The notes under the pieces are model-generated. The model had not been told where the DNA came from. It searched no databases and was given only the letters and a program-made list of their open reading frames with translations. A DNA stretch of 31,182 nt from Saccoglossus kowalevskii (Eukaryota; Hemichordata; Enteropneusta; Harrimaniidae): NCBI RefSeq assembly GCF_000003605.2, contig NW_003108083.1, positions 377,020 through 408,201 of the forward strand, in the 5' to 3' direction. Shown here in pieces: positions 1,345 to 23,584 of this stretch (within the stretch, counting starts at the first letter, position 1; the number at the start of each line of letters is the position of its first letter). The position numbers and the translations under genes are program-made.

Positions 1345-1571
1345 CTAGTTTTATAACATCAGTCCGGTCAATTATGACAGTTTTGTTAGAAAACTCCCTG
1401 AACGCATCAGTTTGATTCAGCCCATATGTAAATTCTTCTAGGATCAATGCCTCCGTGACGTCAGTTTCATTTAAAGGAATCGGTATTTCGACATCTACTT
1501 TAGTAATATTCTCATGCATGGGAACATTCACCATGGGTTTCTGCCTCTTCCTCCTGATAGGTGGTGATTCC
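1345..1571 (-). CDS. Exon 18: back half of SEA-like domain 2 with RRKR site
   Basis: This 227-bp exon, phase 2 to 1, covers residues 3812-3887. It starts with a loop containing SPPIRRKRQ (RRKR at 1544-1555), then VDVEIPIPLNETDVTEALI, FTYGLNQTDAFREFS and KTVII. It aligns with exon 15 along its length, one residue longer. The furin-type site, the EIPIPLNETD strand/helix boundary and two sequons (NET, N-x-T before DAF) are conserved, while the spacer between RRKR and the strand diverges. No cysteines and no G-SVVV are present. Acceptor is TCTAACAG, donor GTACAA (weak, but in the same place as the exon 15 donor). Confidence 0.84.
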
Positions 1572-2346: not shown

Positions 2347-4439
2347 CCCCTTGCCAATGTAATCAGCCTCGTCACGAAACGTGCACGTTGATTTGTCTGA
2401 CAGGTCATCGTTCCAGGGTAATCCATATATATATAAGGTCATCATAAATCTTTGACTGGGTATCTGTACTTTACAGATATATTCCTCTGGTGTACACGTT
2501 GGTAAAACCGTTGCTGTAGTAGGCGCAGTTGTAACTTGAAGTGTTGTGGGATCTTGATGTGGTGTAGTAACTTTCGGTGCAGTTGTAACATCGCCACTTG
2601 TACTTTTTGTTGGTGTAGTAATCTTTGATGTAGTTACATCGCCACTTGTACTTTGTGTTGGTATAGTAACCTTCGATGTAGTTGCATCGCCACTTGTACT
2701 TTTTGTTGGTGTAGTAACCGTTGATGTAGTTACATCGCCACTTGTACTTTGTGTTGGTTTAGTATCCTTTGATGTAGTTACATCGCCACTTGTACTTTGT
2801 GTTGGTGTAGTATCTTTTGATGTAGTTGCATCGTCACTTGTACTTTGTGTTGGTACAGTAACTATTGATGTAATTGGTGTACCTGATGTAGCGTCTGTCT
2901 GTGATGTAGTAACCTGTCTCATTGTGGGAACCGGTGCTGTAGTTTTGACACCACTTGGCTGTGTCGATGTATCTGATTGGGTTGTTATAACTGGCGATGG
3001 TGTGCTTGGTTGTGCTGTTTTAACTGATTCAATAGTAGTAGTTTTTAATGTAGATGTTTCACCTTCTGTTCCATCTGTGAACGGACTGGCTGTGTCAACT
3101 GTACCTTCTTCTGTCGTAGGACCTGATGTTGTGTGTGGTTTTGTTGTTGTAACTGGCTCACTGGCAGTAGTTTTCAATGTAGATGTTTCACCTTCTGTTC
3201 CATCTGTGAATGGACTGGCTGTGTCAAATGTACCTTCTTCTGTCGTAGAGCCTGGTGTTGTGTGTGGTTTTGTTGTCCTAGCTGGCTCACTGGCAGTAGT
3301 TTGTAATGTAGATGTTTCACCTTCTGTTTCATCTGTAAACGGACTGGCTGTATCAACTGTACCTTCTTCTGTCGCGGGACCTGATGTTGTGTGTGGTTTT
3401 GTTGTTGTAACTGGTTCACTGGTAGTAGTTTGTAATGTAGATGTTTCACTTTCTGTTCCATCTGTGAATGGACTGGCTGTGTCAACTGTACCTTCTTCTG
3501 TCGTAGGGTCTGATGTTGTGTGTGGTTTTGTTGTTGTAACTGGTTCACTGGTAGTAGTTTTCAATGTAGATGTTTCACCTTCTGTTCCATCTTTGAACGG
3601 ACTGACTGTATCAACTGTACCTTCTTCTGTCGTAGGACCTGATGTTGTGTGTGGTTTTGTTGTTGTAACTGGTTCACTAGTAGTAGTTTGTAATGTAGAT
3701 GTTTCACTTTCTGTTCCATCTGTGAACGGACTGGCTGTATCAACTGTACCTTCTTCTGTCGTAGGACCTGATGTTGTGTGTGGTTTTGTTGTTGTAACTG
3801 GTTCACTAGTAGTAGTTTGTAATGTAGATGTTTCACTTTCTGTTCTATCTGTGAACGGACTGGCTGTATCAACTGTACCTTCTCTTGTCATAGGACCTGA
3901 TGTTGTGTGTGGTTTTGTTGTTGTAACTGGCTCACTGGCAGTAGTATTCAATGTAGATGTTTCACCTTCTGTTCCATCTGTGAACGGACTGGCTGTATCA
4001 ACTGTACGTTCTTCTGTCGCGGGACCTGATGTTGTGTGTGGTTTTGTTGTTGTAACTGGTTCACTGGTAGTAGTTTGTAATGTAGATGTTTCACCTTCTG
4101 TTCCATCGGTAAACGGACTGGCTGTGTCAACTGTATCTCCTTCTGTTATTAGGTCTGATGGTGTGCTTGGTTGTGTTGTTGTAGCTGGTTCACTAGTAGT
4201 AGCGATAATAGTAGTTTCATTTTCTGTGTCATTGCTAAAGAAACCATTCGTCATGATTGGTTCTGTTGTAACACCTGTCTCAGCAACAAGGACATCGGTG
4301 GAAACTACTTCAGTGCCTTCCACTGTGATTATGCCTGTTGTAATCTGGTCAGTATATGCATCGATATAAGTTGTCATGGTTTCCATATCCCCGACAGTTG
4401 TTGCCGGAAATTCAGTTGTAGGTGCCAGTGTGTATGGAT
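2347..4439 (-). CDS. Exon 16: mucin block D (43-residue repeats) and front of SEA-like domain 2
   Basis: This 2,093-bp exon runs from phase 1 to phase 0 and covers residues 3092-3789. It begins DPYTLAPTTEFPATT, followed by about ten 43-residue (129-bp) repeats with TTSEPVTTTKPHTTSGP and TVDTASPFTDGTEGETS. Next come about seven 16-residue (48-bp) repeats like TPTQSTSGDVTTSK. These are Pro/Thr/Ser-rich, closer to classical mucin than exons 10-11. The end switches to CTPEEYICKVQIPSQRF, TLYIYGLPWNDDLSD and TCTFRDEADYIGKG, the front of a SEA-like domain matching exon 13. Acceptor is TTTTTCAG. The donor is taken as GTAGGT at 2341-2346 because it gives phase 0 at the same residue as exon 13; it is weaker than GTAAGT. 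A long open frame on the opposite strand (2924-4369) is a repeat artefact. Confidence 0.86.
2375..2880 (-). repeat. 48-bp coding repeats of mucin block D (with adjoining unique end)
   Basis: About seven 16-residue repeats (TPTQSTSGDVTTSK type) lie at about 2570-2870 within exon 16. The period is a multiple of three, so copy-number change keeps the reading frame. Confidence 0.75.
3010..4200 (-). repeat. 129-bp coding tandem repeats of mucin block D
   Basis: About ten copies of a 129-bp (43-codon) unit fill this part of exon 16. The landmark gatgttgtgtgtgg recurs with 129-bp spacing (e.g. 3125, 3254 as ggtgttg, 3383). Internal copies are very alike and edge copies more divergent, as expected from unequal exchange. 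Confidence 0.85.
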
Positions 4440-4724: not shown

Positions 4725-4948
4725 CTAATTTGGTTACGTTGGTCATACTAAGTATGACGGTTTTTGAGGATATATTTCTGAAAGCATCAGTCACATTCAG
4801 ACCATATTCAAATTCAGTTTCAATATACTCGACCGTAATGTCAGTTTCATTCAATGGTATAGGTATCTCCACTTCTACTTCAATAATATCCTCGGTATCT
4901 GTGGGAGCAATGTAGACCTGTCTTTTCCTTCTATTATGATTATGTAAC
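4725..4948 (-). CDS. Exon 15: back half of SEA-like domain 1 with RRKR site
   Basis: This 224-bp exon runs from phase 2 to phase 1 (acceptor CCAACAG, donor GTAATG), residues 3017-3091. It begins with a short polar loop and RRKR at 4921-4932, a furin-type proprotein convertase site, then VEVEIPIPLNETDITVEYI, FEYGLNVTDAFRNIS and KTVIL. The alternation EVEVEIPI fits the third SEA strand, the ETEFEYGL part the last helix, and KTVIL the last strand. The usual SEA self-cleavage motif G-SVVV is absent, and the RRKR sits in the corresponding loop. N-glycosylation sequons NET, NVT and NIS are present. There are no cysteines here; all four SEA-like cysteines lie before the cut. Strong homology with exon 18 supports the exon. 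Confidence 0.85.
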
Positions 4949-5092
4949 CTGTTGGAAAAAAACAATCCAGTTACTACAATAGTCAGCAGAAATTGAATCT
5001 TGACAGTTACAACCAAGATAGTGTATTACGAGGAGTTATACTATATTAAGTGAAGCCATACATATTCATTATATATTATACAGAATACTCAC

Positions 5093-5160
5093 GTAAACTT
5101 GGTGACATGGTAGCACGGTATTATTCTTCCCAGTCTGCCTACATCAAACACTATATGAAG
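5093..5160 (-). CDS. Exon 14: middle of SEA-like domain 1
   Basis: This 68-bp exon runs from phase 0 to phase 2 and encodes LHIVFDVGRLGRIIPCYHV followed by TKF. Acceptor is CACACAG and donor GTGAGT. It is too short for an ordinary ORF search and was found by homology with exon 17, which is also exactly 68 bp, has the same phases and shares VFDVG-L-G and a C-Y-V pattern. In the SEA fold this would be the second helix and the strand that leads to the cleavage loop. The cysteine is conserved in both copies. Confidence 0.8.
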
Positions 5161-5421
5161 CTGTGTGTTTAGTGATAATGTATAATTAACATAACATAAT
5201 TAAGACTTAAATCATAAGAGGAACATATTAAAAAACAACATATTTATGGCTACCAAAAATAACATTGAGGCTGAATACACAGTACACATAGGGGGAAGAG
5301 TAAATTATATTCCATTGATTCGCTGGATTGATTACAAAGCTAAATAGGTGCTAATGCAAACAGTAGTTTGCCACTTTCATTAACAGTTACTTGACTATAC
5401 TTAATTGTACAGAATACTTAC

Positions 5422-6893
5422 CCCATGCCCAATGCTGTCAGCTTCATCTTTGTACATGCATGTGTTATCATCATTAAGGTCATCGACCCATGTTAGGCCA
5501 AATATAACCAATTTCATCTTAAATCTCTGACTCGGGTATTGAGCAATGCATATGTAATTCTGAGTTTTGCACACTGCTGCTGTTGTAGTAATGCCATCTG
5601 TTTGGGTTGACATGTGCTGCGTTGTAGCTGTTGTACCATATGTTGATACGCCTGGTTCTGTTGTTACTATTGTTTCAGTAGTAGTCATAATCGTTTCGTC
5701 GTCCATTCCTGCTGTTGTTGAGCCAATTGATGTGAATGGTTCATCGACAATAGTAGTCTCCAATTCAGTTCCCTCTCCTACTGTGAGTGCATATGGTGAT
5801 GTAGTACCTGCTGTGGACTTTGATGTTATTTTGTCGTAATTAGTAAGAGGAACAGTTGACTGCACAGTAGTTTCTTTAAAATGAGTGGTGTCCATCGCAG
5901 GGTCGGTCTCTGTAGTAGGTACTGGTGTAGTAGGGGTAGTGGTTTTGTCATAACTTGTTGTCTCTATTTCTGTAGATAGTACTTCTGTAATTTCCTTGGT
6001 TGTGGTAGGGGTTGATACAAATTTAGAAGAGGTTTCATCATAACTTATGGTCCCAATTTCCGTGGATAGTACCTCTGTAATTTCCTCGGTTGTGGTAGTG
6101 GTTGATACAAACTGGGAAGTGGCCTTAACATAACTTGTGGCCTCCGATTCTGTGGTCATCACCTTCGTAGTTTGTTGAGTTGTGGTACGGGCTGGGGTAA
6201 ACTGGGTAGTGGCTTCATCATAACTTGTGATCTCTGTAGATATTTCATCTGTAGTTTCCTGGGTTGTTGTAAGGAATGGTGTGGAAAGGGAAGTGGTGTC
6301 ATCATAACTTGTGGTTTCTTTTGCAGTGGAAATTTCATCTGTTGTTTCCTTGGTTGTTGTAAGGAATGCTGTGAACTGGAAAGTGATTTCATCATAACTT
6401 GTGGTTTCTTTTTCAGTGACCATTTCGTCTGTAGTTTCCTGGGTTGTTGTAAGAATTGGTGTGAACTGGGAAGTAATGTCATCATAAATTGTGGTTTCTT
6501 TTGCAGTGGCAATTTCATCTGTAGTTTCCTTGGTTGTTGTAAGGAATGGTGTGAACTGGAAAGTGATGTCATCATAAGTTGTGGTTTCTTTTTCAGTGGC
6601 CATTTCGTCTGTAGTTTCCTGGGTTGTTGTAAGAATTTGTGTGAACTGGAAAGTGATGTCATCATAAGTTGTGGTTTCTTTTTCAGTGGCAATTTCATCT
6701 GTAGTTTCCTGGGTTGTTGTAAGGAATGGTGTGAACTGGGAAGTGATGTCATCATAAGTTGTGGTTTCTTTTTTAGTGGCCATTTCATCTGTAGTTTCCT
6801 GGGTTGTTGTAAGGAATGGTGTGAACTGGGAAGTGATTTCTGTACCGTATGTTTCTTTTGCTGTTGTTGTCTCTGATAGCATTGTTGTTTTAA
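5422..6893 (-). CDS. Exon 13: mucin block C (30-residue repeats) and front of SEA-like domain 1
   Basis: This 1,472-bp exon runs from phase 1 to phase 0 and covers residues 2504-2994. It opens VKTTMLSETTTAKETYG, then about ten tandem repeats of 30 residues (90 bp), for example ETTDEMATEKETTTYDDIT followed by QFTPFLTTTQ. The first seven are near identical and later ones degenerate. A non-repetitive Thr-rich stretch follows. The last ~50 residues change character: CKTQNYICIAQYPSQ, FKMKLVIFGLTWVDDLND, TCMYKDEADSIGHG. That end matches the start of SEA domains (a beta strand, W-x-DDL-D, then a helix). Exon 16 has the same end. Donor is GTAAGT and acceptor TTTTCAG. Confidence 0.86.
6000..6880 (-). 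repeat. 90-bp coding tandem repeats of mucin block C
   Basis: About ten copies of a 90-bp (30-codon) unit lie in exon 13. The word gtagtttcct recurs exactly 90 bp apart at 6431, 6521, 6611, 6701 and 6791. Copies toward 6000 are more divergent. Confidence 0.85.
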
Positions 6894-7017
6894 CTGAAAA
6901 AGAAAGGCGGTTTCAGTTTCTTTATTTACTCGTCTCAAATATAGTTCAATTATTATTCCGAATATTATTCTTATTAATTTTGTAATGAACTCAAATATGA
7001 ATGCATAATTTTCTTAC

Positions 7018-7191
7018 CTGGCTCTGTTGCAGACATAGTACCTAATTCATCTGTAATCAACGTTTTATCTTGAGTTACCGTATATGTTTCTTCTGTCACC
7101 AGAGTACTTAATTCATCTGCAACCGACGTTTCGTCTTTAATTGTTGTACCAGTTGATGTTGCTTCTGTTGTTGGATGTGCTGTAGTAGGTA
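7018..7191 (-). CDS. Exon 12: short Thr-rich linker exon
   Basis: This 174-bp phase 1-1 exon, residues 2446-2503, reads VPTTAHPTTEATSTGTTIK, followed by two related segments containing ADELSTLVTEETY and TDELGTMSATEP. It is Thr/Glu-rich with no cysteines and is consistent with a mucin linker. The donor is GTAAGA. The acceptor CTTGCAG is preceded almost directly by a ~144-bp (TAAA)n tract instead of a pyrimidine tract, so use of this exon may be inefficient. Because it is symmetric, skipping would not alter the frame. There is no CDS homologue to prove it; support comes from phase, splice sites and composition. Confidence 0.7.
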
Positions 7192-8215
<1,024 letters not shown>

Positions 8216-10102
8216 CTGTTTCAACTGGAGTATTTGTTTCAGCTGTAGTAGATGTTTCGTCTTGTTTTTTAGTTCCTGCTTCTGTCACAATAGTTGAACT
8301 TAATCCATATGCAGTTGATTGAGTGTCAGCTGCAGTTGATGTTTCGACTTCAGTCGCAGTACCAGTTTCTGTTTTACTTGCAGTACTAACACCAGGTGCA
8401 GTTGATGTTCCATCCTGAGTTGCAATACCAATTTCTGTTCTAATTACAGTACTAACTGAAGCTACAGTTTCGTCTGCAGTTGCAATACTAGTTTCTGCTC
8501 TATCTGCGGTACTATTTGAACCTGCGGTTGATGTTACGCTTTCAGTTGCAGTATCAGTTACCGTTATACCAGCTGTACTAACCCCCGCTGCAGTTGATAA
8601 TTCGTTTTGAGCTGTAGTACCAGCTTCTGATATACCTGCAGTACTAGCCAGGGCTGCAGTTGATGCCTGAACCTCAATCTCAGTTGCAGTCACAGTTTCT
8701 ATTTCACCTGCAGTACTAATCCAAGATACCACTGATGTTTTGTCTTTAGTTGCAATACCAGTTTCTGTTATACCTGCAGTACTAACTGCAGCTGCAGTTG
8801 ATGTTTCGGCTTCAGTTGCAATACCAGTTGCTGTTATACTTGCAGTACTAACCCTAGCTACAGTTGACATTCCACTTTCAGTTGTAGTACCGGTTTCTGT
8901 CATACCTGTAGTACTAACCCCAGTTGTCATTAATGTTTCAACTGCAGTTGCAGTAGCAGCTTCAGTTATATGCGCTGTACTAACTCTATCTGCAGTTGAT
9001 CTTTCATCTTCACTTGTAGTACCAGCTTCATTCATACCTGTAGTGATAAACGAAGCTGCGATTGATGTTCCGTCTTGAATTATAGCACTAGCTTGAGTTA
9101 TATGCGGAGTACTAATCTCAGTTGCAGATAATGTTTCATTATGAGTTTCAGTGGCAGTTTCTGTTATACTTGAAGTACTGACTGCAGCTGCAGTTGACAT
9201 TTCTTCCTCAGTTGCAGTACCTGTTTCTGTTAAACTTGCAGTACTAACTTCAGCTGCAGATGATATTTCTTCCTCAGTTGCAATACCTGTTTCTGTTCTT
9301 CCTGCAGTACCAAGCCCAGCTTCAGTTGACATTTCTTCCTCAGTTGCAGTACCTGTTTCGGTTATACCTGCAGTACTGACTGCAGCTGCAGTTGACATTT
9401 CTTCCGCAGTTGCAGTACCTGTTTCTGTTAAACTTGCAGTACTAACTTCAGCTGCAGATGATATTTCGTCCTCAGTTGCAATACCTGTTTCTGTTCTTCC
9501 TGCAGTGCTAAGCACAGCTTCAGTTGATGTTTCAACCTCAGTTGCTGTAATAGTTTCTATTTCATCTGCAGTACTAATCCAAGCTACCGTTGATGTTTCG
9601 TTTTGAGTTGTAGAACCAGTTTCTGTTATACTTGCAGTACTAACTTCGTCTGCAGTTAATGCACTGCCTTGAGTTGCAGTACGAGTTTCTGTTATACTTG
9701 CAGTACTAACCTCATCTGTAGTTGATGTATCGTCAGTGATTGTAGCGCCAGTCTCTGATATAGCGTGAGTACTTATACCTGATGTCTCAAGATTGCTCGT
9801 TATTGAAACAAAGCGTGAAGTCACACCTACTGTTGGCGCACTGTGTGAGCTCGGTTGAAAGCTAGTGCATGGTACGGATGTCTGTACCGCGTCAGTCTGT
9901 GTCTCGAATATGGTCGTAAAAGTATCTGTTACTGTTGGAGTCGACAGTTTATAAGTTTCTTTTGTCTCATCGTCTGCGGCAGTACCACTTGCTAACCACG
10001 TCAATGAAGCGAGAGGAGTATCAGTTGTTTTTGTAATATCGGTGTGTCCTTCCGTTCCAGTTGTCACAGTTGCTGATGTAGTCTGTGTCGTGGTCGGAAT
10101 TC
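8216..10102 (-). CDS. Exon 11: mucin block B, paralogue of exon 10
   Basis: This 1,887-bp phase 1-1 exon encodes 629 residues (1817-2445). Its first ~110 residues match exon 10 closely (both contain KTTDTPLAS and SAPTVGVTSRFVSI), followed by about 22 copies of the same 22-residue Ser/Thr/Ala/Glu repeat (for example STASITETGTATEEEMS). Acceptor is TGAACAG and donor GTATCA, at positions equivalent to those of exon 10. The flanking introns are also duplicated. It is half the length of exon 10, so repeat number changed after duplication. The block should behave as an acidic glycosylated stalk. Antisense frames are open across the repeats but reflect repeat composition. Confidence 0.85.
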
Positions 10103-12060
10103 CTGTTCAGTAAAAATAGGGTAAAATTATGTAGTATATTTCTTAATTAATTTGTTTATTAAATTACACAAGTCAAATACGAATTTATTTGTGATTTAGT
10201 GGTGATTTATTACAGATACGGTCAGTGCATTGTTTCGTTAGTTCATCTTACCATGTGATGTTTTCCTTTATGGATAACATAGAAGTTATAGCGTGCGAAT
10301 TATAGGTGTGAGGAAGGTAACGGTGGTGGAAATGATGGTTGTGAATAGAAAGTATGGTAGAGGGTGGCTTGACTCGGAAAGCGTGATATCGGGTTGATAT
10401 GTGGTGACGATAGTGAAGTGTACAATAGGTTCGTGGTGCTGGTTGACATATATCAATCTGGGTTCCATCACTCCAACGTCGAATTGTTTATTCGATGTTA
10501 TTATAAAACAATCTGACAAAACTCTGGTATGCACCCTGGTACAATAGAGTTGCAAGTTCGTCGGATGTCCTTATAATTAGTTATATTATATAAAGAAATC
10601 GATATAAGCCATGTCAATTACACACAATCACGTGAATTTGTTGAAGCAGTGACATTGGGAATATAAACATAGTATGCAGTGAGTATTTGAATCATTACAT
10701 GTGAGCCAACTTGAGTGCAATGTTGACAAAACGACACGTGAAAAAGCACCCGATTATGCGCTTCTACACCAAATACTCCCAAATCGACCAGACTTCTAAT
10801 TCGATATTACCATTTTACGCTATTACGCTACATACATCAGTACGCTTATGCTGTTATTCTAATGTAAAATAATAATGTGGATAAGTGCTCATATAACGAT
10901 ATATTCTATAGGTCTATGATGTGATTTGGGGATATATTGACCAAGGGTATATATCCAAGGGCGTTAGTGGAAAGTGTTGGATCATTGATACATTCTGCTT
11001 TGAAAAATGTTTGGAATAAGATAAATTTAATGTTAGTGTACTAGTTACACGCCATGGGTCCCACGGGTAACTAGTTATGAGTATAATAATATACGCACAT
11101 ACTGGATACTGCGCCATTAGATCTCTATTTAATGTCTTTACCGTTTTGATACGTATTGGATAAATTGAGAAAGCCGTAAGTTATCAATAGCTGCGTATAT
11201 GAGAGTTGTAAAATACTTTAAATATTTAACAGCGCCACCACCGACGAATCCGCATACTATAAAATAGACAGAATATGACACACCGCATTCTATTCTTGAC
11301 TTCTGGAACGCGAACATTATTTATAGTATTCGGTCGAGTGCCAAATAACCAATTCCTCATTATTCTAGGTGCTGGTTTTGAAAAAAAACAAAAACATTCT
11401 GAATACAGAAATAAACCAAAGTTTTCATGTACATATTGAGAAAACGTAGATTGATCGATTATTATTGCACCCTGACGTCAGCGATACAAACATTGTTCAA
11501 AATCAGAGTCACCCGGGGAATTGGTTGTTAACAACGCATCAGTAGCTGCAGTATTGCGAAGTCGGCGTTGTGCACTTACAGCTCTGTCCCGAGAATTTGA
11601 AGTTATCTGCTGTGAATTAAAAAAAATTGTCATGCGAAATTTCTATGGGCTCCCGTAATAAAATGGAACATTGCTAGTTCCAGGGCTTGCTCCCGTTTGA
11701 AAAAGAACGCGTGGATAACCAATCGTTATTTGATTTTGTTTTTAAGATTTAGGACACTTTTTATTTGTATGGTTCATAGAAGTACACCAAAATTATAATT
11801 TTATTTGTTATAATTTATCGATTTTGCATACACGTAGTCTACATACGAAACTCGCTAACTCCGGTAAATATATCTTATGCTCTTGTGTCATACCGAATGA
11901 TTGCTTAGGTGTATATTGTTAGCATAGACGGCTGCATAAATTAGGATCTCGCATATCTCGCGAACTCCGTGATTTGGCTCAGACGGTATATTTCTTAAAT
12001 TTAGCTGCAGTTGGCGTTCCATATTTAATAGTGCTATTTTTCGTTTTGATTGTGTGGTAC
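10103..12060 (-). other. Intron between exons 10 and 11
   Basis: This 1,958-bp intron contains the duplicated upstream flank (10103-10915), a unique middle part (about 10915-11740) and the duplicated downstream flank of exon 10. The unique middle part shows no exon, RNA gene or recognisable transposon. Confidence 0.7.
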
Positions 12061-15000
12061 CTGTTTCAGCTGGAGTACTTGATTTGTCTGGAGAAGATGT
12101 TTCGTCTTGTATTGCAGTCCCTGTTTCTGTCACAATAGTTGAACCTATCCCAGATGCAGTTGATGCGTCTTTGTGAAATTGAGTGCCAGCTGCAGATGTT
12201 TGTTCGCTTTGAGTTGCAGTACCAGTTTCTGATATACCTCCAGTACTAACCCTAGCTGCAGCTGATGATTCACTTTCAGTTGCAGTACCAGTTTCTGTTA
12301 TACCTGCAGTAGTATCAGAAGCTGCAGTTGATGTTTCACTTTGAGCTACAGTATCAGTTTCAGTTATACCCCCAGTGCGAATCCCAGTTGCAGGTGATGT
12401 TTTGACTTCAATTGCAGTATCAGTTTCTGTTATTCCTACAGTAGTAATCCCAGCTGCATTTGTTGTTTCATCCTGAGTTGCAATACCAGTTTCTGTTCTA
12501 CCAGAAGTACTAATTGAAGATGCAGTTAAAGTTTTGCTTTCAGTTTCAGTGCCATTTACTGTTTTCCCAGCAGTACTTACCCTAATGGCAGATGACGTTT
12601 CAAACTCAGTTGCAGTTACAGTTTCTATTCCAGTATAACTAACCCCAGCTAGAGTTGATGTCCCACTTTGAGTTGCAATATCAGTTACTGTTCTACCTGC
12701 AGTACTAGCTGACGCTGCAGTTGATAATTCGCTTTCAGTTGCAATAGCGGTTTCTGTTATACTCGCAGTATTAATCCCAGCTGCAGGTGATGTTTCGCTT
12801 TCAGTTGCAATAACACTTTCTGTTACACCCGCAGTACTAACTGCAGCTGCAGAAGTTTCGTCTTCAGTTGCGATACTAGTTGCTGTTGTAACTTCAGTAC
12901 TTGCTGAAGCTGCAGTTTCTCTTTCATCTTCAGTACTAATCCAAGCTACCGTTGATGTTTCGTCTCCAGTTGCAGTAACAATTTCTGTTAAACCTGCAGT
13001 AATAACCCAAGCTGCAGTTGATGTATCTGTTTCAGTTGCAGTAGCACTTTCTGTTAGAACTGCAGTACTAACTGCAGCTGCAGATAATGTTTCGTCTTCA
13101 GTTGCAATACTAGTTGCCGTTGTAACTTTAGTACTAGCTGAAGCTGCAGTTTCCCTTTCATCTTCAGTACTAATCCAAGCTAGCGTTGACGTTTCGTCTT
13201 CAGTTGCAGTACCAGTTTCTGTTAAACCTGCAGTAATAACCCAAGCTGCAGTTGATGTATCTGTTTCAGTTGCAATAGAACTTTCTGTTACAACTGCAGT
13301 ACTAACTGCAGCTGCAGATAATGTTTCGTCTTCAGTTGCGATACTAGTTGCCGTTGTAACTTTAGTACTAGCTGAAGCTGCAGTTTCCCTTTCATCTTCA
13401 GTACTAATCCAAGCTACCGTTGACGTTTCGTCTCCAGTTGCAGTACCAGTTTCTGTTACACCTGCAGTAATAACCCAAGCTGCAGTTGATCTATCTGTTT
13501 CAGTTACAATAGCACTTTCTGTTACAACTGCAGTACTACCTGCAGCTGCAGATATTTCCTCTTCAGTTGCGATACCATTTGCTGTTGTAACTTCAGTACT
13601 AGCTGAAACTGCAGTTTCTCTTTCATCTTCAGTACTAATTCGAGCTACGGTTGATGTTTCGTCTTCAGTTGCAGTACGAGTTTCTGTTATACCTGCAGTA
13701 CTAACCCCAGCTACAGTTGATATCCCACTTTGAGTTGCAGAACCAGTTGCCGATATACCTGCAGTACTAACTGAAGCTGCAGTTGATGTTTCGACTTCAG
13801 TTGCAATACCAGTTTCTGTTTTACCTGCACTACTAACTGAAACTACAGTTGATATCCCACTTTGAGTTGCAGTATCAGTTGCCGTTCTGCCCGCAGTACT
13901 AACTGAAGCTGCAGTTGATAATTCACTTTCAGTTGCAGTGCCAGTTTCCGTTATACTTGCAGCACTAGCCCTAGTATCAGTTGACATTCCGCTTTCAGTT
14001 GTAGTGCTAGTTTCTATTATACCTACAGTACTTTCTGCAGCTGCATTTGATGTTTCGAATTCAGTTGCAATACCAGTTTCTGTTTTACCTGCAGTACTAA
14101 TTGAAGCTGCAGTTGATAATTCACTTTCAGTTGCACTACCAGTTTCTGTTATACTTGAAGCACTAACTGCAGCTGCAGTTGATGTTTCGACTTCAGTTGC
14201 AATACCAGTTTCTATTCTACCTGTACTGCTAAATGAAGCAGCTGCAGTTAATGTTTTACTTTCAGTTGCAATACCAGTTTCTGTCACACCTACAGTACTG
14301 TCTGAAGGTGCACTTGATAATTCGCTATTAGTTGCTGTACCAGTTCCTTTAATACCTGCAGTACTAACTGCAGCTTCAGTTAATGTGTGGTCTTCAGTTG
14401 CAATACTAGTTTTTGTTCTAGCTGCAACACTAATCCCATCTGCAGTTGATGTCCAGTCTCGAATTTTTGTACCAGTTTCTGTCATACCTGCAGTACTAAC
14501 CACAGTTGTCATTAATGTTTCAACTTCAGTTGCAGTACCAGCTTCTGTTATACTTGCAGTGCTAACTCTATCTGCAGTGGATGTTTCATCTTGAATTGTA
14601 CTACCGGCTTCTGTTATACTTAGGGTAATAACCTTAGTTGCAGTTGTTGCATCGACTTCAGTAGCAGTACGAGTTTCTGTAATACTTGCATTACTAACCG
14701 AAGCTGTTGTTGATATTTCGTCTTGAGTTGTAATACCACCTCTTGTTATACCCAGAGTACTAACCCCAGTTGTAGTTGATGTTTCATCCTTAGTTCCAAT
14801 GCCAGTTTCTGTTATACTTGCAGGACTAACTGTAGCTGTAGTTGGTGTTTCTTCCTCAGTTGCAGTATCTGTTTCTGTTGTTCCTGATGTACTAGCCCCT
14901 GCTGCAGTTGATGTTTCGACCTCAGTTTCAGTAATAGTTTCTATTTTACCTGTAGTACTAATCCAAGCCACCGTTTTATCTTTGGTTGTAGTACCACCTT

Positions 15001-15690
15001 CTGTTATATCTACAGTACTAACCTCATCTACAGTTGATGTTCCACTTTGACTTGCAATATCAGTTGCTGTTGCTGTATTAACTGAAACTGCAGTCGGTAA
15101 TTTGCTTTCAGTTTCAGTACCAGTTTCTGTTATACCTGTAGTACTAATCCCAGCTACAGTTGACATTTCGCTATTAGTTGCTGTTGCAGTTAATGTGTGG
15201 GCTTCAGTTGCACCCCCAGTACTAAGCCCTGTTGTAGTTGATGTTTCATCCTGAGTTGCTGTGCCAGTTTCTGTTATACTTGCAGTGCTAACTACAGATG
15301 TAGTTGATGTTTCGTCGGTGATTGCAGTGCCAGTTTCTGATATAGCGTGAGTACTGAAATCTAAATCTGATGTCTCAAGATTGCTCGATATTGAAACAAA
15401 GCGTGAAGTCACACCTACTGTTGGCGCACTGTGTGTGCTCGGTTGAAAGCTAGTATATGGTACGGATGTCTGTACCTCGTCAGTTTGTGTCTCAGAAATG
15501 GTCGTAAAAATATATGTTACTGTTGGAGTCGACAGTTTATCAGTTTCTGTTGTCTCGTCGTCTGCGACAGTACCACTTGCTAACCACGTCATTGAAGCGA
15601 GAGGAGTATCAGTTGTTTTTGTAATAACTGTGTGTCCTTCCGTTCCAGTTGTCACAGTTGCTGAAGTAGTCTGTGTCGTGGTCGTAATTC
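12061..15690 (-). CDS. Exon 10: mucin block A, Ser/Thr/Glu-rich 22-residue repeats
   Basis: This single phase 1-1 exon of 3,630 bp encodes 1,210 residues (607-1816). It starts at a TGAACAG acceptor and ends at a GTACCA donor, which is weaker than most here. About the first 110 residues are Thr-rich and non-repetitive (ITTTTQTTSATVTTGTEG onward). The rest is degenerate tandem repeats of about 22 residues with a core like STAGITETGTATEDETS, roughly 45-50 copies. A 78-residue higher-order repeat lies near 12920-13650. Composition is Thr, Ser, Ala, Glu and Gly with very little Pro and almost no Cys, so the block is strongly acidic. Such sequences are normally O-glycosylated, extended and disordered. 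Exon 11 is a paralogous copy. The open frame runs past the chosen donor to 11888, but the repeat pattern stops at the donor and exon 11 has a donor at the matching position. Confidence 0.85.
12920..13655 (-). repeat. 234-bp higher-order repeat within exon 10
   Basis: The word ctttcatcttcagtactaat starts at 12921, 13155, 13389 and (diverged) 13620: spacings 234, 234 and 231 bp. Each unit is 78 residues and contains WISTEDERET and WVITAG, so it is several 22-residue-like repeats amplified together. The last spacing loses one codon. Confidence 0.88.
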
Positions 15691-16568
15691 CTGTTCAGTA
15701 AAAATAGAGTGAAATTATGTAGTTTATTTGTAATTAATTTGTTTATTAAATTACACAGGTCAAATACGAATTTATTTGTGATTTAGTGGTGATTTTTATA
15801 GATACTGTCAATGCATTATTTCGTTAGTTCATCTTACCATGTGATGTTTTCTTTTACCGATAACTGAGAAATTATAGTATGCGACTTGGAAATGCGAGGA
15901 AGGTCACGGTGGTGGAGATGTTGGTTGTGAATAGAATGTATGGTACAGGGTGGCTTGACTCGGAAAGCGTGATATCGGGTAGATATGTAGTGACGATAGT
16001 GAAGTGTACAATAGGTTCGTGGTGCTGGTTGACATATATCAATCTGGGTTCCATCACTCCTACGTCGAATGGTTTATGCGATGTTATTATGACAATCTGA
16101 CAAAACTCTGGTATGTACCCGGGTACAGATAGATTTGAAAGCTCTTCGGATGTCCTTATAATTAGTTGTATTATATAAAGGAATCGATGTAAGCCATGCC
16201 AAGTACACAAAATCACGTAAATGTGTTGAAGTAGTGACATTAAGAATATAAACATAGTATGCAGTAACCACGGTGAGTATTTGCATCATTACTTGTGAGC
16301 CAACCTGAGTGCACTATTGACAAGAAGACGTGTGGAAAGGCACCCAATAATGCGCTACTACACTATACACCATATAACTTAAAATCGAATAGGTTTAGTC
16401 GGGAAAGGAAACACGATATTATCATTTTACGCTATATATTATATGCACATATGCTGTTATTCTAATGTACAGGAATAATGTGGTTAAGTGCTTACATAAC
16501 GATATATTGTATATTTGGTTACATTATTTAGTAATACATAGTGTTGCTGAACTGATATTCACACGTAC
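15691..16568 (-). other. Intron between exons 9 and 10
   Basis: The intron belongs mostly to the segmental duplication. It holds a minus-strand open frame (15872-16255) whose predicted peptide is partly shared with 10286-10555; see findings. No exon assigned. Confidence 0.65.
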
Positions 16569-16739
16569 CTTCACATACTGGAAGTTCTGGAACATACGTT
16601 CCGTTCAGACACTGTACAGTATTAGGACCTTCCATTATAGCAGGTTCTGTGCAGCTTAGTGTAATATATTCTTCGTGTGCGTACATGACTTTTGACTCCG
16701 TCCATTCTAGATAAGTTATGTTTTCATACATACAGCTTG
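16569..16739 (-). CDS. Exon 9: CCP/sushi module 7
   Basis: This 171-bp phase 1-1 exon, residues 550-606, has the CCP pattern SCMYENITYLEW, ITLSCTEP, VQCLNGTYVPELPVCE. The usual Trp after the third cysteine is replaced by Tyr (NGTY). Sequons NIT and NGT are visible. The acceptor is TTTTCTAG and the donor GTACGT. It is the last CCP before the mucin region; the next exon starts in the same phase with Thr-rich sequence. The segmental duplication that produced exons 10 and 11 stops short of this exon. Confidence 0.86.
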
Positions 16740-16925
16740 CTAGAAAACAAATTTATATAGTATTAAATATATATTATGAAAAGCAACATTTCATTTCCTG
16801 TTAAGGGCTGGTTTTTCCCAGCATTGTGACATATTTCTTCAGTTACCGTCAGGAATTTATGCATACAAACTTTAATTTGATGTGTCATTCGTTCATGCTT
16901 TTAAACGCGCATAATATTCACTTAC

Positions 16926-17102
16926 CAAAACAAACCGGTACTTCTTTATCCCATGACCCATCGTCTTGACACTGTAATGCAGCAGCAGATGATATCGTGT
17001 ATCCAGTACTACACGCATACGTTATTGTTTCCCCCGGTATTACAGGAAGAGAACCCTCTACCAATTCTCCGTTATCAGGGGTACCTGGGTCTTCACATAT
17101 GC
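16926..17102 (-). CDS. Exon 8: CCP/sushi module 6
   Basis: This 177-bp phase 1-1 exon, residues 491-549, is a canonical CCP: ICEDPGTPDNGELVEG, ITYACSTGYTIS, LQCQDDGSWDKEVPVCF. Four cysteines, the G-x-W and the PVC ending are all present. Acceptor is TGTACAG and donor GTAAGTG. It and exon 9 lie close together (186-bp intron). Confidence 0.9.
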
Positions 17103-17839
17103 CTGTACATTGAAATGGCCAGTGTGGTTATTTGAGATTGATCCGACAAATGTACGTGTGTTGTAAGTTGTAAATTAGTGTCTCGTCCAATAAAAATGTA
17201 CGTATAATATCAATTTCATATTTGTATCATGTTTTGGTATATAATTCACTTATTCACATATAGATGTCAATTGTGTGTGCATGACTTCGATTCAATTTGT
17301 CGTGTAATAATAGTCCAGTCGATATTAGGAAATTCTTTCGTATTTTGGGTAAAAATGAAAACAACTGATTTTGACAAGAAAATGATTTCATATGCCCACC
17401 AATGATAATGTTCGTGATTACCGATTACACAAGAATATTACAGAAAATATTACTATATTTTTGTATTTTATTTGTCCTGTATAATGATTAGAGGTCGCTG
17501 AACGAAATTACTAAGTATGTAGTGCATTGAACAACTTATATATAAAAAATAACTAAATCAATATAATTTTACTTGGTTAAAGTACTGTATTTTCTGTATA
17601 AAAACGAAAGAAAATGTCGAAAACGGAATGTCTGTCTACAATTAACCCTAATATATTTCTCGGTCAGTGTACATATAACGTCAAAAAATATTGTGTACAA
17701 CTCAGACTCGTATATTTCTCGTAGTGCGAATATGTGTACATAATAATTTCTTTGTAAACTGAAGCTTATACACTAGTACATTTCCCGTGTGATAAAATCC
17801 CTGTAACCATTGTGTAAATATAGGCAATATTACACTTAC
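17103..17839 (-). other. Intron between exons 7 and 8
   Basis: AT-rich 737-bp intron without recognised content. Confidence 0.7.
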
Positions 17840-18058
17840 GCTGACATTCTGGATTACTGGTGGAAAAATTAAATTCCGGGTTCCACATTACAGAAAAATC
17901 GGAAAAATCTAACTGGCATGTAAACGTATCCAGACCGTTAACAAGTTGAAAGCCGTCGTCACATGACAGTGTAATTTGCATAGTTGCAGCGTAGCATAGG
18001 CTTGAATATTGACAAGTCACGTTACCGTTCTTCAGTATTCCTGGGTCTGGACAATTTT
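17840..18058 (-). CDS. Exon 7: CCP/sushi module 5 (six-cysteine variant)
   Basis: This 219-bp phase 1-1 exon, residues 418-490, opens NCPDPGILKNGNVTC and continues ITLSCDDGFQLVNG, DTFTCQL and NPECQ. The four sushi cysteines are present, plus an extra pair in VTCQYSSLC, likely a local disulfide in the hypervariable loop. The segment between the third and fourth cysteines is long and Phe-rich (DFSDFSVMW, EFNF). NVT is an N-glycosylation sequon. Acceptor is TTTTTTGTAG and donor GTAAGT. The preceding intron of about 2.1 kb contains an LTR-like element. Confidence 0.86.
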
Positions 18059-20135
18059 CTACAAAAAAGAAACATGATCACATTCAAATATGACAATGTA
18101 AACAGTAAATATCTTATTAAAATATTTTTGTCGTATACACTATAAATACAAAATAACTATTACTTTAGACTTTTCGCTCGCACACATGTGCAATTTAATA
18201 GATTTAAGACAAGGGGCAACGTTGAGAAAATGTTTCCATTACATAAAAGTGAATACGATATCACTGTCGATGAGAGGGAGAATAATCCACTATTATTTCC
18301 CTAATTATTACTGTGATATTCAATTGTATTATGGATTCAATATTATTCAATTGTGTTTCAGTTCTTTCTTATATTGTTATTGTGTTTATTCAATTCAACC
18401 GTCTTTATTACATGTTTAACTCGAAGAGAACTAGTACAAATAATGATAGCAGACGCCATTTCAAATGCTATTCTCTTATTAACCAATCATAGGTCATGGC
18501 ACTATGAACCAATCAGCACCAAGCCCGCTAAAATTTGTTACGGTGGCTGATCCTACCGAGCCTATAAAAGGCCTCAATACTTGTTTTAGCGCGCGAGTAC
18601 ATGTAACCTTTTCGAGTGACGAGTTAATAAAAGCAGTTTCTTGATATCGTTGTTTGTTTCCTGTTTCTTTGATCGACCGTCCCTTGTTTTACGCGCCTTG
18701 AACTTTACGCTCGTTAGAGTTGAGATAAGTGAAACCCTACTCTCAATCCCCCCTACAATCACCGTAGCTTTCATATTCATATTCATATTTAAATACAGCG
18801 CTGTATGAATAACCTCGTGCACCTTAAAGTGTAAACGAGAATGAAAAAGAAGATTGTGTGAAATTCATTAAGCCATTCTAACTGAGAGCATGCAAACGGA
18901 AGTTAGGAGATGTGTGAAAAAACGCCCTTGCAAGCCACTCGGTGGCCCATCAAGAAGTTATCTGTCGTTGTTGCCAAATTTCTTTTCTATCAAGTTAGGG
19001 ACCGCGTACGTAAGGCTTCTTCAGTTCTGAAGGGCTCGGGTGTATTTATTTAAAAATAATATAGTCAGACATTTTACGAAATAAAGCTACTACAATTAAA
19101 AAGATGGCCAGCTTGAAAAGAAAATGAGCATACACTAAAGGCGACAATCTAAACGCTCAACTTGTTTGTTCTCTTAGAAGATTTTTCTTCAGAGTTGAAA
19201 CCAAAAACGTCAGGCTTAGAGCATTTTGAAAATCTTAGTGAGTTCTCAAATTGTTATTTCGATAAACAACACTTACAACTGGCCAGAGAACAATTCACCC
19301 GGTAAGATGATGTTACAGTCGACCAGTTAACCATGAACATTGTGCGCGTTTTATAACACTTGCAAACAATGAACAACCGGGTAGTCCAAGCGGAATTAAA
19401 AATGAACTTATACTTCATGCTACGAATTCGCTATACATGTCACTTGTCAAACTCTTCAACTTATTTTTTTCTACGGTTTATTATCCAGAATTCTCGTAAT
19501 ATGGCCTGATGTATACTATATATAAGAAGGTTAATATTCATTATGTGTCAAACTACAGATGTATTACTTTCCTTGGTGCTATGAGAAAGTTGTTCTGTGT
19601 TGTCATTAATGTAAGAAACAGAAAGATCATATGCGCATTGTAGACTTTCATATGGGTTTGCTTATATCGATGGAGCCACGATATAGCATAAATTGATTGC
19701 AAGGGCATAGATACCAATCTGATATTCTGTGTAGAAGTATGTACGATGTTTCAATGTTTCAAGATATGGGGTATTGTGGTAGGTGAAGATTCTTTGTCAA
19801 TATTGATAAAACACAAATTATTATTTTTAACAGAGATTTCGATGTATGTAATAGCCAATCCACTCTATTTAAATTAGGAACGGAATGTATATCGAGTGTT
19901 GACAGCTAGACTTATCCGGAGATATTATTTCATTATACGGGTAATTACAAGCGGTCTGTGACAGAACTGACGAATCAAGTTTCCAAAGCTGCATTATTTT
20001 CTTAGCATTTTTTTTATATGTATTTTTTTTTTACGAAATTGTATATAATGCATTACTCGTTTCAAAAATTAGTAATAATATTCTGTATGCGTATACTAGA
20101 TAACATTTACCATTATACAAGTAATACAAACTTAC
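18059..20135 (-). other. Intron between exons 6 and 7, with LTR-like element
   Basis: The 2,077-bp intron contains the promoter/polyadenylation cluster described separately at 18483-18660. The rest shows no exon with CCP cysteine spacing and no other recognised element. TTCATA is repeated three times near 18773-18790. Confidence 0.65.
18483..18660 (+). mobile_element. Possible LTR (solo) promoter and polyadenylation core
   Basis: Two CCAATCA boxes (18483-18489 and 18509-18515), a strong TATAAAAG (18563-18570) and AATAAA (18626-18631) followed by a GT-rich tract lie in order within about 180 bp on the plus strand, antisense to the gene. A TATA box about 60 bp before a polyadenylation signal is typical of the U3-R part of a retrotransposon LTR. 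I could not find confident TG...CA ends, a target-site duplication, a primer-binding site or internal genes, so it could instead be an unrelated promoter-like sequence. Confidence 0.4.
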
Positions 20136-20333
20136 CGAAACAGAACACTGCGGACTCTGGATTCTCTGACCACATTCCATTTTCACATTTCAATTCAGGC
20201 CCACCAAATAGACTGTAACCATCGGTTGAATTACTCTGGTCACATGCAAGTGTTAAAATATCACCATCATTATATGGAGCTGAACCGGAATTAATCTGTA
20301 CTCTTTTTTTTAAAGTGCCGGGTGTGGGACATC
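20136..20333 (-). CDS. Exon 6: CCP/sushi module 4
   Basis: This 198-bp phase 1-1 exon, residues 352-417, has acceptor TATTCCAG and donor GTAAGT. The CCP cysteines are at GCPTPGTLK, LTLACDQ, LKCENGMW and VFCF, with the conserved Trp. NST is a sequon in the loop DQSNSTDGY. The basic KKR near the start is unusual compared with the other modules. It restarts the CCP series after the unknown exon 5 domain. Secure as a CCP module. Confidence 0.87.
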
Positions 20334-20895
20334 CTGGAATATACACATAATACGTATATCTAATTGACTGTCACATTTACTCACAATAATGTGTCATTTC
20401 TTTCAGCTCGGTGTGTTAGTTATATTCACCACACATATGATATTAACATTAATAGCATATATCGTGTGACATCTATGGGTATATTTTATTTTAACTTCCA
20501 CGACTACCATTCACAAGATCCGCCAGAACAATTACAAGACAATTGAAATTCTGTCGAGAAGTGTATCCACTGTTAAAATCTCAATATTGGAACACGTTTA
20601 AACTCATTAACATTAGATATGCTACTTGATGTGTTGTAGCAACGGATTATAGGTAATGGGGAAGAATACTGTTCACTCGATTTGAAAATTGAGTTGATGA
20701 ATTAGCAAACGTCGTAATGTATTATCAATTTATTAGTTTTGTATCTAAAACACGTATAGTAAATAAACCGAATATTATACATTACCGGTAAGAATAGCGT
20801 TAAGTTCAACGAACTGTAGTTAGACGAGAACGATCAGCCGATTAGATTCTTTCATTTCATCGGTAAACGTTATAACTTTAGATTGTTGTACTTAC
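20334..20895 (-). other. Intron between exons 5 and 6
   Basis: 562-bp AT-rich intron; nothing recognised. Confidence 0.7.
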
Positions 20896-21273
20896 CACAT
20901 GTTATTGTCGTGCATCCTATGAGTGTACTGTCGCCATCAAATGCATCAAGCGTGAAATTTGTGTTAGAGCCTTGTCGTAGTTCAGCGCATACGTACGTAG
21001 CACATGACGTGGGTGTCACCGCGTAATCAAAATCGAATGTGATAGCGCCACCTGGCGTCAGCTCCTGGTCTGCCTCCTCTTGCGTTAAATTGGAATCGGA
21101 TTCCAAATATCGTGTAGCCCCAGAATTGGAATCACTGAGAAACACTTTAATGGCCCAAAGATTGCTCCCAGTAGCACCAGCTCCAGCACTACTACTTGTA
21201 GCATCCACAACTAATGAAAGTGTTGACTCTTGTGTCGGTATCAAAGGTAGGCCACTGTTGACTGTCGTCACCA
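20896..21273 (-). CDS. Exon 5: ~126-residue extracellular domain of unknown family
   Basis: This 378-bp phase 1-1 exon, residues 226-351, is inserted between CCP3 and CCP4 and is not a sushi module. It starts in a Thr/Ser-rich segment, then reads NLWAIKVFLSDSNSGATRY, a Glu/Gln-rich helix-like piece, GGAITFDFDYAV, then CATYVCAEL and IGCTTITC. Four cysteines sit in the second half. Alternating hydrophobic residues (LSLVVDA, IKVFLS, ITFDFDY) suggest a beta-sandwich. I have an impression of similar segments in invertebrate adhesion proteins but cannot name a family. The donor GTAAGT is strong. The acceptor is weak: the first in-frame choice is GAAG at 21274, and a CAG twelve bases further in (exon from 21261) also keeps frame. 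Both lie just after a (TA)25 run with little pyrimidine tract, so the exon may be spliced variably. Confidence 0.68.
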
Positions 21274-21288
21274 CTTCAGTAATTATAT

Positions 21289-21292
<4 letters not shown>

Positions 21293-21342
<50 letters not shown>
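21293..21342. repeat. (TA)25 microsatellite
   Basis: A perfect TA run of about 50 bp in the intron between exons 4 and 5. It ends about 20 bases before the exon 5 acceptor on the gene strand. Confidence 0.95.
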
Positions 21343-21343
<1 letters not shown>

Positions 21344-21429
21344 TGATATAAAACTATCCCCAATTCTCAAGTTATCAGAATTCCCAGAATTCATATTAAG
21401 TGAAACGATTTGATTGTAATCAAACTTAC

Positions 21430-21600
21430 TTCCACATAAAGGTACCGAATTATCCCATGTTCCATTATAACATGTGAGAGTAGAACTGCCTATCATGGTT
21501 TTCTCTCCGTCACACTCGTAAGCAACGGAACCCGCGTGTACGTAACTTGCACCGTCGACTTCTTTGCCATTTTCTGGAGCGTCGGGTTTTTGGCAATTTA
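21430..21600 (-). CDS. Exon 4: CCP/sushi module 3
   Basis: This 171-bp phase 1-1 exon, residues 169-225, is a textbook CCP: NCQKPDAPENG at the start, VAYECDGE in the middle, STLTCYNGTWDN and PLCG at the end. All four cysteines and the G-x-W are present, and NGT is an N-glycosylation sequon. Acceptor is TTTTATAG and donor GTAAGT. The exon lies only 156 bp from exon 5 on the gene strand, and that short intron is filled largely by a TA microsatellite. This is among the most secure exons in the window. Confidence 0.9.
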
Positions 21601-21861
21601 CTATAAAATAGAAAACGTTTAAGAATATATGTCTATGATTAATTTGCCATTCGAGCCTTGCACAATTGATTTAACAAAATATGTAATTTAAAGAATGATA
21701 ATATTGGAATCGGAATGGGATTTTATATATTTGTAGTTACATCACACACTTTAAAACCTACACCGATGTATTAAAATCAATTTATTTATACCGGTATATG
21801 ATGGGGAATACACTCGGAGAATATTTCTAATCTCTTAATAATAAGTTTCATTGTCACTTAC

Positions 21862-22071
21862 AGAAACATAATTCTGGTGGAAGAGCTGTTTGTATATTAC
21901 CCCCGACTGTCCAGTCTCCGTCGTCACACGTGAACGTGTCTACACCGTACGTCGTGGTATTAACACCACATGTAAACGTAACCTGGTCACCTGTCTCATA
22001 AAATGAACCATCTACCGTTGGATCTGGACTTCGTGATCCTAAACTTGGATTTCCAGGATCCTGACAAAGTT
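21862..22071 (-). CDS. Exon 3: CCP/sushi module 2
   Basis: This 210-bp phase 1-1 exon, residues 99-168, has acceptor TTTTCCAG and donor GTAAGT. The four sushi cysteines are at LCQDPG, VTFTCG, DTFTCDDGDW and PELCF, with the diagnostic Trp after the third cysteine. An NTT sequon lies at residues 141-143 (GVNTTTYG). The stretch between the first cysteine and the first beta strand is longer than average (NPSLGSRSPDP). It sits between CCP1 and CCP3, as expected for a continuous CCP rod. The module call is secure; ligand unknown. Confidence 0.87.
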
Positions 22072-23350
22072 CTGGAAAATAAAGTACAAAACTATTTTTA
22101 CAGATAACAGTGAATATTCTTAATTATCCTAGGACGTGACATAAAATATCAATCCGTTATAAACCGAATGTTATAAGCCCAAACATAATAGGAAAGCAAT
22201 TAGAAAATCCGGAAGTAAAAGTATATTGAATTATCAAAATTTCACCAGCATTTTCAAACGTTACGTTAAATCAAAACCCGTTCCAAGTAAAGTGTTAACT
22301 CCGCATAACTCCGTATACTGGATTGAGAATATACCTATAACATTGTTCAAAACACCTCTGAACAATGTACGTTATTTTTGTAGTGTTTGTCTGTGAATAG
22401 TGATTTAATAATGCAAAATAACAAAAAACTCAGTGGAAGTATAACTAAACCGTTACCGTTTGTTGAATAATTGGTATAAATTTGTATGTGTGTTAGCATG
22501 CTCTTTCGGTCGTTTGTAATAATATCGTTCATAAATAACATAAATGAACGTGATTGTACATAAACCAGTAATTACTTAGAATAGAATATATGTAACCAGT
22601 GATCACACATAGATAATGTAAGAGTCTGTCAAAATGGTTAGAATGCAATATACTACACTGAGTTGATTTTTTTCAAAATCAAATATAGCGAAATAAATTT
22701 ATAGTTGTAAAACAAGTCAATTCTTAGTCGTTCGTTCGTAAATGCAATATTACGTGGCTGGAATATACGTCACCATGAGTAACATACATTTCAGCTAAAT
22801 TGGGTGCATCTTCCAATGGCATGCACAGCATGTAACTGTATTATACCGACTTACTAGATTATGCGATTAATGCTCTCTTAGAAACACGGCATATAAATTA
22901 ACAATTACCAGCACAGCAGTTTTAAATACGCAACTTGAATATCACATACATTGTAATACTCACAAGATTGTTTCACCTCTCAAACCAAATTAAGGTACAT
23001 TTCACTTAATGAAGAAATATTTTGTAATATAATTAAATATTTAGCTTTCCCTTGTATTTGAAATGCATTTACAAAACGTATTAGCTTAATCCAGTAATGG
23101 GTCCGTAACATACATGTTATTTTAGGTGTGTTACGTAACATAGGACAAACGTGAAGGAAATTCAGATTGATGAAAATCTCGTTTCATAGCCCAGTTTGTA
23201 CTCTATAGGGTGTAACATATATAAGAATTAGCTTGCAAACTCGAGAGAATTTTCAAGGACATCGTATATACCTCCTTATTGTGTTTGAGTGATAATTTCT
23301 AACTACATGTACATAGATTGCTGTCACAGTTCAACCATACAACTACTTAC
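22072..23350 (-). other. Intron between exons 2 and 3
   Basis: 1,279-bp AT-rich intron. I searched by eye for CCP-like cysteine patterns and saw none. Confidence 0.65.
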
Positions 23351-23584
23351 TTGCGCAAGCGGAATCACCCAGCGTTGGGGCTATACTAGATGTACCAATA
23401 ATTGTGAAGCAGCTATACCCTGTATTTGTAGACTCAAAACCGTTATCACACTGTACATATATGAAACTACCAGTCGCCAGCACAGTGCCGGGTGACGTCA
23501 CCACGGTTGTGTCGTTACACGATCCATCTATCGCTGTAGTATAGCAATCCACGTTAGATGGATAGTCTGGAAGGACACAGTTCG
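23351..23584 (-). CDS. Exon 2: CCP/sushi module 1 (six-cysteine variant)
   Basis: This 234-bp symmetric (phase 1-1) exon, residues 21-98, has a TTTTTACAG acceptor and GTAAGT donor. It begins NCVLPDYP and contains the YVQCDNGFES segment typical of the middle of a sushi module, ending GDSAC. Six cysteines are present instead of the usual four: the extra pair lies in the VDCYTTAIDGSC stretch. The conserved Trp before the last cysteine is missing. A ladder of CCP modules typically forms an adhesive or ligand-binding rod, as in complement regulators and selectins. It is the first folded domain after the signal peptide. The divergent cysteine count makes this the least typical CCP together with module 5, but the neighbouring modules support the call. 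Confidence 0.8.

Follow-up and report, generated by a model that had tools for sequence, protein, structure and literature searches.

Two SEA-like domains with a shared furin-type site, putatively cut by a proprotein convertase, in a predicted Sushi-mucin protein of Saccoglossus kowalevskii

Introduction

Can the cut that opens a SEA domain be handed over to a furin-type protease in a mucin-like protein? In the available excerpt of PMC6954182, MUC1 (self-cleavage), Notch2 and human GPR126 (furin) are all described as being cut at one place, the loop that joins strand 2 to strand 3. Here we examine a gene of the hemichordate Saccoglossus kowalevskii in which the corresponding loop appears to carry RRKR. 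The window, meaning the whole stretch of DNA that was analysed, has 31,182 nucleotides (contig NW_003108083.1, positions 377,020 to 408,201).

The reading that we favor, with somewhat better than even confidence and from sequence, is that three exons of this gene encode a divergent SEA-type domain which would be cut at RRKR by a convertase and whose halves would be held together. Since a similar module follows further downstream, the locus is best read as encoding a Sushi-mucin protein with two tandem, putatively convertase-cut, SEA-like clasps.

Results

Gene model and architecture

The gene was modelled on the minus strand from sequence signals, the exons being joined on these signals rather than from a transcript. 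The model joins 18 exons at GT-AG borders and contains 3,880 open codons. Read 5′ to 3′, it starts with eight phase 1-1 exons (16569-23584, minus strand), followed by a Ser/Thr-rich segment, SEA-like domain 1, a second Ser/Thr-rich segment, SEA-like domain 2 and a short further exon.

Among the eight phase 1-1 exons, Pfam finds Sushi above the cut-off in five and below it in one, while a scan up to E 0.1 matched the other two to no family. One of these two is the first modelled exon (23351-23584, minus), which nevertheless has Sushi-like cysteines. The other (20896-21273, minus) encodes 125 residues amid the Sushi exons and is possibly an undescribed domain.

The mucin-like segment before domain 1 (5572-15690, minus; exons 12061-15690, 8216-10102, 7018-7191 and 5572-6893) has 2,337 residues, of which 40% are Ser or Thr and a single one is Cys. 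The segment between the two SEA-like domains (2497-4439, minus) has 648 residues with 44% Ser and Thr and no Cys. The short exon 3′ of domain 2 (886-927, minus) reaches its donor with the reading frame still open, and the gene is therefore expected to continue past it. Because the sequence flanking the window on the contig reads N, the start of the gene and any membrane anchor are out of sight.

SEA-like domain 1 and its RRKR

SEA-like domain 1 has 147 residues encoded by three exons on the minus strand. Part a (5422-5571; open frame, donor gtaagt) is the 3′ end of the mucin exon 5422-6893 and carries the first strand, W-x-DDL and cysteines 1 to 3. Part b (5093-5160; acceptor acag, donor gtgagt) is a 68 nt exon with cysteine 4, which is entered in phase 0, the next exon being entered in phase 2. 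Part c (4725-4948; acceptor acag, donor gtaatg) holds the RRKR loop and then the C-half.

The original prediction had placed the domain at 4725-5480 and at residues ~2945-3091; this range omits the first strand, and our model moves the start to about 5571 and the residues to 2924-3070. It had also placed RRKR at 4921-4932, and there it is indeed found, on the minus strand, in frame within an AG/GT-bordered exon, beginning at the sixth full codon.

The domain reads in the SEA-type order that had been proposed: FKMKLVIFGLTW, WVDDLND, CYHV, the loop, EVEVEIPI, a helix-like stretch and KTVIL, in which we infer the identity of the strands and helices from sequence. The predicted C-Y-V motif is present in its place, but its exact reading is C-Y-H-V (C-Y-Y-V in the second copy). 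As also predicted, all four cysteines lie ahead of RRKR and none lies behind it up to the next mucin segment.

The absence of G-S-V-V-V holds as well: by eye, neither domain 1 nor the second copy has a G-S dipeptide. A search of the 3,880 modelled residues for G[ST][VIL]x[VIL] gave a single match, GSLPV, in a Sushi exon. With neither G-S-x-x-V nor G-S in either copy, a self-cleaving SEA domain is ruled out for these modules.

A second copy of the domain

SEA-like domain 2 has 148 residues, is 54% identical to domain 1 and shares with it the intron phases, the cysteines and RRKRQ. It is likewise made of three parts on the minus strand: the 3′ end of the mucin exon 2347-4439 (part a, 2347-2496), a 68 nt exon with the phases of domain 1 (part b, 2061-2128) and a part with the RRKR loop and then the C-half (part c, 1345-1571). 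The RRKR of domain 2, located by motif search and gene model, lies at 1544-1555 (minus).

Of the aligned codons, 37 are the same in both copies, 44 show a synonymous difference, 66 change the residue and one is a gap. The NG86 estimate of dN is 0.38 and dS is saturated and not computable, so the pair is old and constrained. When the genome (572 Mb) was searched with domain 1, five candidates were scored and all five matched at E up to 0.001; they coincide with the exon parts of these same two modules, five of the six being recovered. More distant relatives may therefore exist beyond the five scored.

The two copies also bear on the gene model itself. If the three exons were not spliced as drawn, the domain would be an artefact, and the joins do rest on sequence signals. 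Against this stand the equal length of the middle exon and the equal phases of the two copies, the GT-AG borders, the number of open codons across the 18 exons and substitutions between the copies that respect the reading frame. We consider such an artefact very improbable and reject it on the substitutions and the matched middle exons and phases.

Evidence for a SEA-type fold

We judge it probable, from sequence comparison, that the two modules have a SEA-type fold. A comparison with the SEA HMM, which had been proposed as a check, gave no Pfam SEA match for either copy: Pfam-A and NCBIfam scans returned no family at E up to 10 for both copies, with HMMER filters dropping most matches above 0.1. 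A genome scan with PF01390 (10 candidates scored) likewise did not have the exons of these two domains among its matches.

A profile built from the two copies gave three matches up to E 10 among 177,635 distinct PDB sequences. The best is the mucin-16-like SEA domain 1ivz (E 0.054, columns 17-81), with an alignment that extends from the first strand across the strand-2 region in the register expected of SEA. The matched 1ivz stretch itself retrieves mucin-16, transmembrane protease, mucin-1 and agrin chains. The other two matches are unrelated, namely a fimbrial fusion (E 0.055, with no stretch passing alone) and a fimbrial subunit (E 1.1). The E-value of the 1ivz match alone is thus not decisive, because an unrelated fimbrial protein nearly ties with it.

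Searches of PDB with the N-half of either copy as a single sequence found no SEA. As a rough yardstick, a 37-residue exon from the same genome with a sub-cut-off PF01390 match retrieves PDB SEA chains with E-values of 0.42 to 1; it was searched as a single sequence, unlike the two-copy profile that gave E 0.054.

Scored with an HMM made from five PDB SEA N-halves, domain 1 obtains 2.5 bits and domain 2 obtains 5.1; these are low scores, and each is equalled by 4 of 1,000 shuffles of the copy itself, with both copies aligned at one common offset. On other genome loci found with PF01390, the same HMM gives 14.3 (L011), 21.0 (L012) and 7.9 (L013).

An hhalign comparison of the N-half with eight SEA or SEA-like N-halves covered 59 gapless columns with a score of 23.3 (pairwise E 3.6e-4, probability 37%). 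None of 300 query shuffles reached this score, a reversed template gave 10.8, and 296 of 300 template shuffles reached at most 18.3. The remaining four had absurd scores (130-142 over 4-31 columns) and were disregarded as artefacts caused by gapped columns at the ends, as were two above 130 among a further 150 template shuffles.

The C-half gave a different result. Its hhalign score against SEA (strand 3, helix, strand 4) was reached by 78 of 300 shuffles, and in a second comparison by 211 of 1,000; against PDB it found unrelated weak matches only. A Chou-Fasman propensity scan, which is crude and only illustrative, gave a mixed picture.

These results allow for a domain that is not SEA at all, in which the convertase site would merely release the mucin part and no heterodimer would be held. 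The negative Pfam scans, the C-half and the hhalign probability all fit such a domain, as do the four cysteines of the N-half, two of them ahead of the first strand, an arrangement unusual for SEA domains. Nonetheless, the top PDB profile match of three is to a SEA domain and falls in the register expected for it, and the N-half stands out in the shuffle tests (4 of 1,000 for each copy; 0 of 300), so that we hold a non-SEA domain to be unlikely. Of the SEA-like domain originally predicted, then, the N-half has profile support and the topology is likely, while Pfam is negative and the C-half is without sequence support. Pei and Grishin (2017) reportedly described divergent SEA domains, and relatives of the domain in the window may be among them.

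SEA-like relatives in the same genome

With an E limit of 1, the PF01390 scan gave five matches (L011-L015), none of them over the cut-off. The C-half is readable downstream in L011 and L013; the downstream sequence of L012 is largely N. In L011 the loop reads NGSIIV, the full self-cleavage motif, and in L013 it reads AGSVNA, with G-S present and the final V absent. Both are SEA-like, with G-S at the place where the gene in the window has RRKR.

The C-halves of these two loci resemble each other more than any of 1,000 shuffles. In both L011 (C506) and L013 (C1295), the N- and C-halves lie in different reading frames, which suggests that an intron separates them, as it does in the gene in the window.

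The basic site is conserved between the copies

The loop has diverged, with 7 of 24 columns identical between the copies compared to 74 of 124 away from it. Within the loop, RRKRQ is identical at all five positions and the other columns at 2 of 19. A run of five was produced by 0.95% of shuffles with seven identical columns in 24. At three of the five RRKRQ codons the copies differ synonymously; therefore conservation concerns the protein motif itself.

R-X-[KR]-R occurs twice in the 3,880 modelled residues compared to 0.033 expected from composition, both times at the corresponding place of the two paralogous domains. At the DNA level, AGRAGRAARAGR is found twice in the window compared to a mean of 0.02 in shuffles, none of 100 shuffles having two. 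Chance occurrence of RRKR is ruled out by the composition expectation and the DNA shuffles, and the sequences support specific conservation of the basic site in the two copies.

The kept motif might still go uncut in life. RRKR would then form a glycan-binding basic loop or be a cryptic site, with the SEA-type fold as an uncleaved spacer, as SEA repeats that lack the cleavage motif may be. Consistent with this, the closest structural match is mucin-16-like, the P1′ residue is Gln, and N-glycosylation sequons are near (NIT at 94 in copy 2, NET at 106/107 in both copies). General basic charge, however, explains poorly why a four-residue convertase consensus is exact amid a diverged loop, and the loop has no other basic cluster common to both copies. 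On balance we see an uncut RRKR as rather unlikely.

Proposed mechanism

In the reading that we favor, the loop between strands 2 and 3 would be long and carry the furin-type RRKR before Gln, and a proprotein convertase acting late in the secretory pathway would most likely cut after RRKR. The position of RRKR in this beta2-beta3 loop is read from the N-half alignment; the original prediction had put the site at the loop where SEA domains are cut, and on that placement the claim stands, with the site conserved in both copies.

The cut halves would stay joined through a common beta-sheet, as in Notch and human GPR126. No cysteine is present in the C-half of domain 1, in the middle mucin segment, or between the second RRKR and the last of the modelled exons. 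With no Cys behind RRKR, there is thus no disulfide between the halves of either domain within the modelled sequence.

By analogy, convertase cleavage into beta-sheet-held halves is the most likely function. We propose it because the loop holds RRKR where SEA-like relatives have G-S, and because Notch2 and GPR126 provide a precedent. Beyond cleavage, we infer non-covalent retention of the halves, release by force or shedding, and membrane anchoring.

With two modules and the 648-residue mucin segment between them, full cleavage would give three chains joined by two non-covalent clasps: a Sushi-mucin head, a releasable mucin middle of about 650 residues and a C-terminal part. That both domains are cut and that these chains are shed in two steps under force is a tentative proposal, which we put at well under even odds.

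Comparison with known systems

Human GPR126 (ADGRG6) offers the closest parallel for the site. According to the portion of PMC6954182 at hand, its SEA domain carries, in the beta2-beta3 loop, a furin site of the form (R/K)-X-K-R, the cut protein resists separation on size-exclusion, and the site is not conserved in zebrafish. It differs in being an adhesion GPCR with CUB, PTX, HormR, GAIN and one SEA domain, compared to two modules in a Sushi-mucin context here.

Notch2, in the same excerpt, has a furin site in the corresponding loop of a SEA-like fold, the heterodimerisation domain.

The heterodimerisation domain of Notch, with its S1 furin site, forms a non-covalent heterodimer. Its neighbours are LNR and EGF repeats, whereas those of the present domains are mucin and Sushi. 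No LNR was among the Pfam matches of the ten sequences scanned, a set that left out the mucin exons, and Notch was absent from the three PDB profile matches up to E 10. Membership of the Notch receptors is ruled out, as no cysteine-rich LNR precedes the domains (one Cys in 2,337 residues before the first, none in 648 before the second). The comparison with Notch is therefore to be taken as analogy only.

The SEA domains of MUC1 and MUC16 share with the present ones the mucin context and the N-half profile match, but MUC1 cuts itself at G-S-V-V-V and neither copy here has G-S. Fibrocystin (PKHD1) is described in the available part of PMC13424714 as a large ectodomain with a SEA domain and Notch-like processing involving a putative proprotein convertase; there, in contrast, the convertase site is apart from an ADAM site within SEA, and disulfide bonds are said to link the chains.

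The principle of a furin-cut SEA domain is thus already known from Notch and human GPR126, and what would be new is the presence of two such modules in a Sushi-mucin protein. Our literature search, in the portions of the sources it returned, found neither a furin-type SEA domain in any Sushi-mucin protein nor two convertase-type SEA-like modules in one such chain. If our reading is correct, convertase cleavage in place of SEA self-cleavage extends beyond receptors to a mucin-like protein, and does so twice per chain. It would also raise the questions of whether pre-cut clasps are a general route to mucin stalks that come apart, and whether self-cutting and protease-cutting substitute for each other in evolution.

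Repeats in and around the mucin exons

Finally, several repeats were found within the gene. The stretches 8328-10910 and 13907-16513 form a duplication with 79% identity over 2.6 kb, which takes in parts of the two long mucin exons and their 5′ introns. By eye, an intron stretch of about 320 bp (10248-10570) is near-identical to the low end of 15834-16285. In the mucin segment between the SEA-like domains, 2996-4202 (minus) repeats at a shift of 129 bp with 90% identity; these repeats are therefore younger than the SEA-like duplication, or have been homogenised since. A long ATTT tandem array at 7204-7350 adjoins the mucin exon 7018-7191.
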